Below, one piece after another: positions 24,321 through 48,767 of a DNA stretch of 64,000 nucleotides. The notes beneath the pieces are model-generated. The model was not told the origin of the DNA. It worked only from the letters and a program-made list of their open reading frames with translations, and made no database searches. Position 1 is the stretch's first letter. Each line of letters opens with the position of its first letter. The DNA is from Mucilaginibacter sp. OK268 (GTDB lineage Bacteria > Bacteroidota > Bacteroidia > Sphingobacteriales > Sphingobacteriaceae). The position numbers and the translations under genes were made by a program. Location: positions 186,001 through 250,000 of the forward strand of contig NZ_FNJV01000005.1 in assembly GCF_900103125.1 (NCBI RefSeq), in the 5' to 3' direction.

Positions 24321-24399
24321 TCTTCATCTAAAATTTCGACTTTAGGAATGGCCCCGTTTACATGGAGGAAAGAAAAAATAACCTTACAGGGTTATCGTC

Positions 24400-24476
24400 A
24401 CTTTTCCCTTCGGCAGTACTAACTGCATCAGGTTCAAAGGGTATTATCTCAGTCCATTAAAGGACACCCCTAAAGT
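24400..24476 (-). ncRNA. TPP riboswitch (THI element)
   Basis: On the minus strand the conserved blocks are present in order: AGGGGTGTCC, ACTGAGATAATACCC, TTGAACCTGATGCAGTTAGTACTGCC and GAAGGGA. Stem P1 pairs ACTTT (24472-24476) with AAAGT (24400-24404). It lies 80 bases upstream of thiS and should shut off the thi operon when thiamine pyrophosphate is abundant. In Bacteroidota these switches often act on translation or attenuate transcription; no clear terminator is visible between it and thiS. Confidence 0.95.
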
Positions 24477-24604
24477 TGCGGTAAACTTATAAAAAAATAG
24501 ATAATTCAAAGAGATATTTATTTTTTTTAAATTTCTTTTGATACTGCTGACATAAGGTTGTCACTGGCCGTTGGTTTCTTTGTTCTATCAAAACAAAAGG
24601 AACC

Positions 24605-34989: not shown

Positions 34990-35061
34990 TTTTCGGCCTT
35001 AGGCAATCGGGGGTAGCTGAAATTTGCCGGTCTGCTCCGGATTTCGTATCTTTATGTAAAT

Positions 35062-35099
35062 AACGGCCCGCTGCTCTATTATCAGAGTAGCGGGCCGTT
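35062..35099. terminator. Hairpin upstream of thrS
   Basis: Arms AACGGCCCGCTGCTC and GAGTAGCGGGCCGTT (one mismatch) with an 8-base loop, followed by TTTAG. Likely ends read-through from the tailspike-like gene. Confidence 0.7.
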
Positions 35100-35153: not shown

Positions 35154-35305
35154 TAATCAATAATTTAATACTTTTTAAACTTTTCAAAACCGTGTTAAAA
35201 TTTGTTAAAAAGTGTTAAAACCGATGGTTTTGAATCAATTTTCAGGCGTTTTTAAGCCGTTTTCGATTAAAAAAGTGTTAAAATTTAAGGTTTAAAAAGT
35301 TTTTG
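35154..35305 (+). promoter_or_regulatory. Phased A-tract element upstream of thrS
   Basis: AT-rich element with GTTAAAA at 35194, 35204, 35214 and 35277, and A-tracts or T-tracts every 10-11 bases over about 130 bases. It shares long similarity with 48213-48375 on the other strand. Sequence of this kind is expected to be curved. It lies 127 bases before the thrS start. Confidence 0.7.
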
Positions 35306-40780: not shown

Positions 40781-40844
40781 TATTATAAATATACAGATTG
40801 TTACTTTGTGGTTGTTAATACTTATCCTACTTTTGTTGCGCTTT

Positions 40845-41020
40845 AGGTTTCATATGGTTTATAACCGTAAATGAATTAAAAGGGAATACGGTGAAGAATC
40901 CGTAACTGTCCCGCAGCTGTAAGCTCTTTAACCATTGTCCATTTTTATTGTCACTGTCCTTGAAATAAAAAGGGTCGGGAAGGCAGGGCAACTTGGGGAG
41001 CAAGTCAGAATACCTGCCCA
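40845..41020 (+). ncRNA. Cobalamin riboswitch
   Basis: The conserved parts are present in order: a GGTTT-containing P1 start, GGGAATACGGTG (40882-40893), AATCC.AACTGTCCCGCAGCTGTAAGC (40898-40924), and the B12-box region AGTCAGAATACCTGCC (41003-41018). It lies about 115 bases upstream of btuB and should turn the operon off when adenosylcobalamin or methylcobalamin is plentiful. Confidence 0.96.
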
Positions 41021-41134
41021 GGCACTTATATTATTCATAGCTTTCGGGGATTGAAGCTTGAATGTGAAATCCGTTTGTCGTGATTTCTGTTCAACCTTTG
41101 TGTCGCCCTATTGCAAAGTTGTTGCGAAGAGAAA

Positions 41135-48212: not shown

Positions 48213-48375
48213 CAAAAAACTTTTTAAACCTCAAATTTTAACACTTTTCTGATCAAAAACAGGATAAAAACGGGTCGAAATTTATTCAAAACCATCGATT
48301 TTAACACTTTTTAACAAATTTTAGCGCGATTTTGATGCGTTTTGAAAAGTTTAAAAAGTATTAAATTATTGATTA
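48213..48375 (-). promoter_or_regulatory. Phased A-tract element upstream of the CrtA-like gene
   Basis: Copy of the 35154-35305 element on the minus strand, with GTTAAAA-type heptamers (plus-strand coordinates 48319-48325 as GCTAAAA, 48309-48315, 48299-48305 and 48236-48242). It has one extra 10-base unit. It ends about 40 bases before the gene start. Confidence 0.7.
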
Positions 48376-48433
48376 TCAAAGAACTGTATTTAAATCGGTC
48401 TGTTTTTGTGCCCTGCTGGCTCTTATGCAAACA

Positions 48434-48465
48434 GCCCGATTTTCCTGTTATCAGGAAAATCGGGC
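48434..48465. terminator. Hairpin upstream of the CrtA-like gene
   Basis: Perfect 14-base arms GCCCGATTTTCCTG / CAGGAAAATCGGGC with a TTAT loop. It occupies the same place relative to the A-tract element as the hairpin at 35062-35099. Confidence 0.7.
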
Positions 48466-48583
48466 CGTTGTATGATACAAATATACGGAAAATTTAGGAG
48501 CTATTTATTACCTAAGGGGGCAATTCGATTTGGCGCGCTCGACATTCCTCTCTCCGCCTGCGGCGTAAAGAAGGGTTAAAAAT

Positions 48584-48676
48584 ATGTCATTGCGAACGCA
48601 GCGTGGCAATCTCGTAGCTATTCTCGTGGATGAGAACGCGAGGAGATTGCTTCGTTGTGCCTCCTCGCAATGACAT
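48584..48676. repeat. REP-like palindrome, diverged GTCATTGCGA family
   Basis: Outer arms ATGTCATTGCGA (48584-48595) and TCGCAATGACAT (48665-48676) are perfect; inner GCAATCTCG/GAGATTGC also pair. The interior differs from the copies at 28583 and 31720. Confidence 0.8.
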
Positions 48677-48767
48677 ACAGGGAATATGAAGCACGGGCGA
48701 ATCACGCCTTTATCCAATTCAACCTAAATTATGATATCCGGTTGATGTACTTTCTGCCGCACATTGC

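Follow-up and report, generated by a model that had tools for sequence, protein, structure and literature searches.

Introduction

The BIME-1 (RIB) repeats of enterobacteria combine palindromic hairpins with an IHF site, for which the consensus is WATCAANNNNTTR. They are intergenic and occur on the scale of hundreds. Enterobacterial BIME-2 are likewise intergenic repeats on that scale, and they serve as transcription-independent gyrase sites (PMC6379681). The gyrase motif of E. coli has a 130-bp footprint and a 10.75-bp periodicity (PMC6379681). REPIN/RAYT systems form resident, multi-copy intergenic populations that are kept for a long time (PMC8049555). MITEs are short, intergenic, and carry inverted end motifs.

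The element described here resembles all of these in part. It was seen in two places in a window of 64,000 nucleotides from Mucilaginibacter sp. OK268, where an earlier note reported phased A-tracts upstream of thrS and of a distant gene. That observation is confirmed and is much larger than described. The interpretation, a bend that a nucleoid protein or regulator might bind before two genes, is partly supported.

Results

Copy number and anatomy of the element

In the 7.16-Mb genome of this Mucilaginibacter, a soil bacterium, an element of about 285 bp recurs between genes, in at least 120 copies. The earlier note had located four GTTAAAA heptamers per copy. On the plus strand, those at 35194, 35204, 35214, and 35277 are in place. 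On the minus strand, the ones at 48315, 48305, and 48242 are exact, but that at 48325 is GCTAAAA, with one mismatch. The 10-bp difference between the copies also holds: the distance from ACTTTTTAAA to TTTAAAAAGT is 121 in copy 1, and copy 2 has 131. The same note would have taken dozens of copies at fixed phase as support, and a lone pair as evidence against its idea. We counted 63 exact occurrences of the triple heptamer, and 119 when up to three mismatches are allowed (58 on the forward and 61 on the reverse strand), so the copies are about 120 and not two. Its reversed control has no match in the genome, which places the counts far above chance. Further sites came from a search designed for the second sub-type. 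The 120 regions that we retrieved around the sites contain 121 core matches, and both end motifs are present in 118 cases. Core variants exist (for example L317), so the true number should be somewhat higher.

Intervals between elements are near Poisson (CV 1.15, mean 56 kb), and regular spacing along the chromosome was rejected. A replichore-oriented (KOPS-like) element was rejected too, with strands mixed along the large contigs.

Anchored profiles and an alignment of 65 copies give the anatomy. The element starts with a -7-box-like GTATATTTRTATA, in which TA and the central T are invariant across the aligned copies; upstream of the box there is no conservation. A hairpin (CAGCCCGG, a variable stem, and CCGGGCTG) comes next, followed by TTTNGTTAAGG, an A-rich spacer, and TAGTTATTTGATAATCAATAAWTTAATAC. 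The latter contains, in most copies, the IHF-consensus match AATCAATAAWTTA. Then come ACTTTTTAAAG, around 13 A or T tracts, and GGTTTAAAAAGTTTT, after which conservation falls to zero (near 35304 in copy 1). The block TTTGATAATCAATAAnTTAATAC is also highly conserved in the alignment. The phased tracts had been described correctly, but the true element is about twice as long and includes an RNA hairpin. The upstream hairpin, promoter-like box, end motifs, fixed total length, and orthology had been overlooked. The table gives the coordinates of both copies.

Table 1. Features of the two element copies, in window coordinates.
Feature	Position	Strand	Basis or remark
Copy 1, -7-box-like TATCTTTA, left end of the element	35047..35054	+	Bacteroidota consensus TAnnTTTG
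Copy 1, G+C-rich hairpin with 15 bp stem, then TTTAGTTAAG	35063..35098	+	folding, covariation
Copy 1, IHF-consensus-like AATCAATAATTTA	35155..35167	+	sequence match to WATCAANNNNTTR
Copy 1, left end motif of the curved module, ACTTTTTAAA	35170..35179	+	
Copy 1, curved module, 131 bp outer length, 13 A/T tracts	35170..35300	+	curvature, tract phase
Copy 1, near-invariant core TTTGTTAAAAAGTGTTAAAA	35201..35220	+	offset 31
Copy 1, right end motif TTTAAAAAGT	35291..35300	+	inverted repeat of the left end motif
Copy 2, -7-box-like TATATTTG	48478..48485	-	
Copy 2, hairpin, 16 bp, upper stem unlike copy 1	48432..48467	-	folding, covariation
Copy 2, IHF-like AATCAATAATTTA	48362..48374	-	
Copy 2, curved module, 141 bp outer length	48219..48359	-	curvature, tract phase
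Copy 2, core TTTGTTAAAAAGTGTTAAAA	48299..48318	-	offset 41

The hairpin is stable in both window copies (MFE -30.4 kcal/mol, z -8.0 in copy 1; -28.1, z -7.5 in copy 2). Across the family, 95.6% of hairpin cells are paired, and 10 of the 15 pairs present two-sided changes. Cells with such changes number 106, against 25 in shuffles (0/500). Cells with G-U exceed those with A-C (44:22, P=0.009; by sequence 27:8, P=0.002). A plus-strand RNA should show such an excess, and a DNA cruciform should not. Directly past the hairpin there are about 5 T in 10 nt.

Other features were observed in and around the elements. A long palindromic repeat, GTCATTGCGAGGAGGCACAACGAAGCAATC..GAGATTGCCACGC..GCAATGACA, adjoins copy 2 (window 48580-48725) and is like CGTC-type REP dimers. 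Related fragments, together with GCCGAAACAAGTTCGGCATGAC palindromes, recur next to several other elements. L022 (C7:743996 in the source genome) has neither the usual hairpin nor the left half; two core-like repeats lie in its module and a GACGGAGCTCAAGGTGACA repeat immediately upstream. The window also has a cobalamin riboswitch at 40828-41035 (+) and a TPP riboswitch at 24388-24481 (-), both above the gathering threshold. The tRNA scan gave two tRNA-Leu and no others.

Fixed length and core register

The end-to-end spacing in 118 copies is 131 in 86, 132 in 16, 130 in 14, 129 in 1, and 121 in 1. It means that 116 of 118 lie at 131 +/-1, and the rare exceptions are mostly one helical turn off. 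The single 121 is the thrS copy. Both window copies are ordinary family members, with copy 1 one turn below the 141-bp norm.

Inside this constant frame, the core sits at offset 31 or 41, a shift of exactly 10 bp. Among 60 length-matched ortholog pairs, 9 had the core moved by 10 bp with the length kept. With exact ends as the sole anchors, outer lengths in the source genome (G000) are 137-140 in 106 copies and 129 in 2. Relatives show the same peak under ends-only anchors, plus rare lengths of 129-130 and 149. M. aquaedulcis (G062) peaks at 137, with one copy of 127. Modules measure 138-139 in G042, G052, and G132, and 131-132 in G056. Length changes in whole helical turns, which argues that the duplex is selected and not the sequence alone. 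We consider this the strongest sign of all.

Curvature and tract phase

We estimated curvature with a dinucleotide wedge model that uses published wedge values. The end-to-end distance of the module is 0.59 of its contour, against 0.86 in dinucleotide shuffles. The tract phase vector, a model-free statistic, agrees: it reaches 9.15 for 13.3 A/T tracts, and 2.5 in shuffles. In the window, copy 1 has a ratio of 0.62 (P=0.005 against shuffles) and a phase vector of 8.0 (P<0.001); copy 2 has 0.67 (P=0.014) and 8.1 (P<0.001). Modules of G084, G052, G062, and G042 likewise exceed their shuffles, and flanking DNA does not differ from its own. So the module combines what defines intrinsically curved DNA, helically phased A-tracts and curvature above that of shuffled sequence. 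The earlier suggestion of bent DNA is sustained by this strong predicted curvature and phasing. Its counter-case, curvature equal to that of random sequence, does not hold.

The spectral peak of the tract period is 10.7, 10.6, 10.7, and 10.7 bp in G000, G062, G042, and G052, and module interiors of G000 are only about 63% identical to those of the other three. Tracts at 58, 69, and 80 bp stay in phase across the module centre. With a half-width of 10.4-11.1, this peak is too broad to tell gyrase apart from other wrapping proteins.

Distribution, orthology, and selection

Counts with the ends-only pattern are 115 in G000, 103 in G080, 102 in G022, 99 in G084, 19 in G062, and 0-4 in the others. 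Four close species have around 100 copies each and a few more distant ones have divergent versions. According to a model search, G042, G052, G132, and G056 contain divergent members, and G075 a single candidate. No strong match appears outside the genus among 301 genomes of the taxonomic family. Most Mucilaginibacter do not have the element. Therefore, it is not essential to the genus.

In G056 (L175/L176) and G075 (L177) the periodic motif is AAAAGTAT or GGTTTGG/AAGGT, at about 10-11 bp, and not GTTAAAA. The G056 elements keep the hairpin and end motifs despite this change. In these two species the partner may read helical phase with an altered base preference.

The positions are conserved. 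At least 87 of 96 elements sampled from relatives map to element loci of the source genome, 69 via both flanks, and some sites are not common to the sampled species. Distant species share sites as well: the thrS site is occupied in G042, and the site of copy 2 in G062 and G052. When orthologs are compared and all search anchors are set aside, substitutions amount to 6-8% at conserved columns and to 40% at variable ones. The left flank comes close to the baseline for unrelated DNA (0.52 vs 0.46). The contrast between columns indicates that each old copy is under purifying selection at the phased tracts; judged from the alignments, it is selection and not recent copying. Gene conversion (concerted evolution) as the sole explanation was ruled out, since it would have homogenised the variable columns too.

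These results bear on a reading as non-autonomous mobile repeats of REPIN or MITE type. There, transposition would have spread the copies, a transposase or integrase would have assembled on the hairpin and curved ends, and what we see would be a resident population. The multi-copy, strictly intergenic distribution, the clean right boundary, and the inverted end motifs fit it. So do the clade-limited burst in the four close species, the unshared sites, and the very long persistence of REPIN populations (PMC8049555). Nevertheless, most positions are shared, and conserved columns of old orthologous copies are constrained 5-6 fold, which dead copies would not be. Phage and plasmid collections contain no homologue. 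In viral contigs, the 26 matches to the ends-only pattern have few tracts, no hairpin, and scattered lengths, and we took them as chance. No precise empty site was found: L140/L317, apparently unshared, proved to be occupied in both species, with a one-turn-shorter variant, and the second such site, L250/L319, is ambiguous. No target duplication was seen. We consider the mobile reading rather unlikely as an account of the present family. A transposition origin followed by recruitment is quite possible.

Two elements of Mucilaginibacter sp. SG564 have reciprocal flanks relative to the source genome. The left flank of L209 is that of L089 and its right flank that of L106, with the opposite combination in L237, so a chromosomal rearrangement had its breakpoints at two elements. 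The flanks of L202 and L203 resemble this pattern.

Genomic context

Of 118 copies, only 4 have a 141-bp core that extends into a predicted ORF beside it. Gaps are co-directional, convergent, and divergent in 82/14/22 cases, with 71/21/26 expected (P=0.11). Within co-directional gaps, the element is oriented along the genes in 62:20 cases (P=4e-6). This bias suggests some transcription-related role, which pure architecture does not need. When the right-hand gene converges on the element, its stop codon abuts it, and the median distance to the right end is 10 bp.

This orientation and the abutting stop codons, with the plus-strand RNA hairpin and the T residues after it, would suit transcription punctuation. 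The hairpin would terminate transcription or stabilise 3' ends, and neighbouring genes would be kept apart by the bent DNA, as a roadblock or insulator. However, 141 bp and a length quantised in helical turns are superfluous for a terminator. The 22 copies between divergent genes have nothing reading in from the left, and each hairpin has a promoter-like box of its own. We find this explanation improbable.

Right-hand genes on the plus strand start at a median of about 110 bp from the element. Together with the GTTAAAA direct repeats every 10 bp, this could be the upstream activator (or UP-like sequence) of a regulon whose regulator, of OmpR type, recognises direct repeats of 10 bp. The genes downstream include alaS, pheS, valS, ffh, mnmE, glgB, htpG, purL, a pcrA-like gene, mqnC, and proB, and thrS in the window. 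The presence of alaS, thrS, valS, pheS, ffh, and mnmE among them would favour such a regulon. Against it, the set is functionally mixed, around 29% of copies have no gene starting at the right, and G056 and G075 do not conserve the GTTAAAA interior. The ffh gene has its own promoter, conserved and unchanged in species without the element. A regulon is very unlikely. A regulator common to two genes, as the earlier note considered, is not supported: the copies are about 120, in all three kinds of gap in roughly background proportions.

The aminoacyl-tRNA synthetase genes alaS, thrS, pheS, and valS lie right of L026, L059, L092, and L101. By an informal estimate, four such genes among 66 right-hand plus-strand genes are apparently more than expected.

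A transcript of some 250 nt, structured or regulatory, that acts through the 5' hairpin and a terminal pairing of ACUUUUUAAAG with CUUUAAAAAGU, is hardly credible: the hairpin covaries and the ends can pair, but the end pairing never covaries, no further structure is predicted, no Rfam family corresponds, and helical-turn phasing with an exact length suits duplex DNA instead.

Discussion

We propose that these copies are a dispersed family of selected, vertically inherited elements of chromosomal architecture, each a wrapping site for a protein complex. We give this a probability of roughly 0.5. The element is most likely an architectural DNA-wrapping site, for a complex of gyrase or HU/IHF type, coupled to a small transcription unit. 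None of the mobile-repeat, punctuation, regulon, or RNA readings explains the helical quantisation as well as wrapping does. In this respect the earlier idea of a dispersed, conserved element with an architectural protein as plausible partner is supported, with the partner as a prediction.

A binding partner of the module is what we infer, and the mechanism could be as follows. The pre-bent module of about 140 bp would wrap a symmetric protein complex that reads the minor grooves of the A-tracts along one face of the helix. Length could then change only by whole turns. The IHF-like site would be bound by a protein of the IHF/HU family, helping the wrap to start. For the core protein, DNA gyrase or a multimeric HU/IHF-type nucleoid protein seem the most likely candidates. 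Gyrase comes first because the E. coli motif has the 130-bp length and the 10.75-bp period. The tiny unit of promoter and hairpin might supply a short RNA, terminate read-through, or load positive supercoils beside the wrap. The result would be anchoring of a topological or nucleoid kind, with a site roughly every 56 kb.

A bolder version is offered tentatively. The approximately 120 loci would be dedicated, nucleosome-like wrapping sites, where a superhelical path of a fixed number of turns docks a C2-symmetric complex. Architecture rather than sequence would be inherited, and the sites would outlast sequence drift with a lineage-specific binding protein. The small transcription unit would set the topological state of each element.

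The family provides about 120 natural, replicated instances that vary in sequence, and in which changes of total length are nearly always whole helical turns. It is an intergenic repeat family of Bacteroidota whose copies persist at orthologous sites through selection and not because they spread recently. With a high copy number in four species and absence from most relatives, a long-standing question, the positioning of topoisomerases or nucleoid proteins by intrinsic curvature, becomes directly testable in vivo. The family is missing from Rfam, where no family reaches the gathering threshold and an E-value threshold gives chance matches only, and from the open literature that we searched.

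Compared with known systems, the element appears, by analogy, similar in logic to BIMEs and is unrelated to them in sequence. Profiles and alignment show no REP unit: there is no second inverted copy and no GTAG/CGTC tag, only a single hairpin (CAGCCCGG..CCGGGCTG) with a variable, covarying stem. The fixed-length module of phased A-tracts sets the element apart from BIMEs, and gyrase is a predicted partner of it. In contrast to REPIN/RAYT systems, the element is not made of paired inverted REPs, no linked transposase was seen, and the curved module is new. It differs from MITEs in its helix-turn quantised length, its conserved positions, and its column-specific constraint, where neutral copies would decay uniformly.

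The strong gyrase sites of Mu (SGS) and pSC101 and the E. coli motif are closest to the module. They share with it a length of about 130-140 bp, A/T phasing at about 10.7 bp, and an expected symmetric wrap. A gyrase site of about 130 bp and a period of about 10.75 bp compares with 131-141 bp and a peak of 10.6-10.7 in four species here. The E. coli motif is degenerate, and its two periodic arms flank a 36-bp centre where cleavage occurs. In the element, by contrast, the tracts run through the centre with continuous phase. These tracts are also conserved in sequence, and they come with the hairpin, the IHF-like site, and the inverted end motifs.
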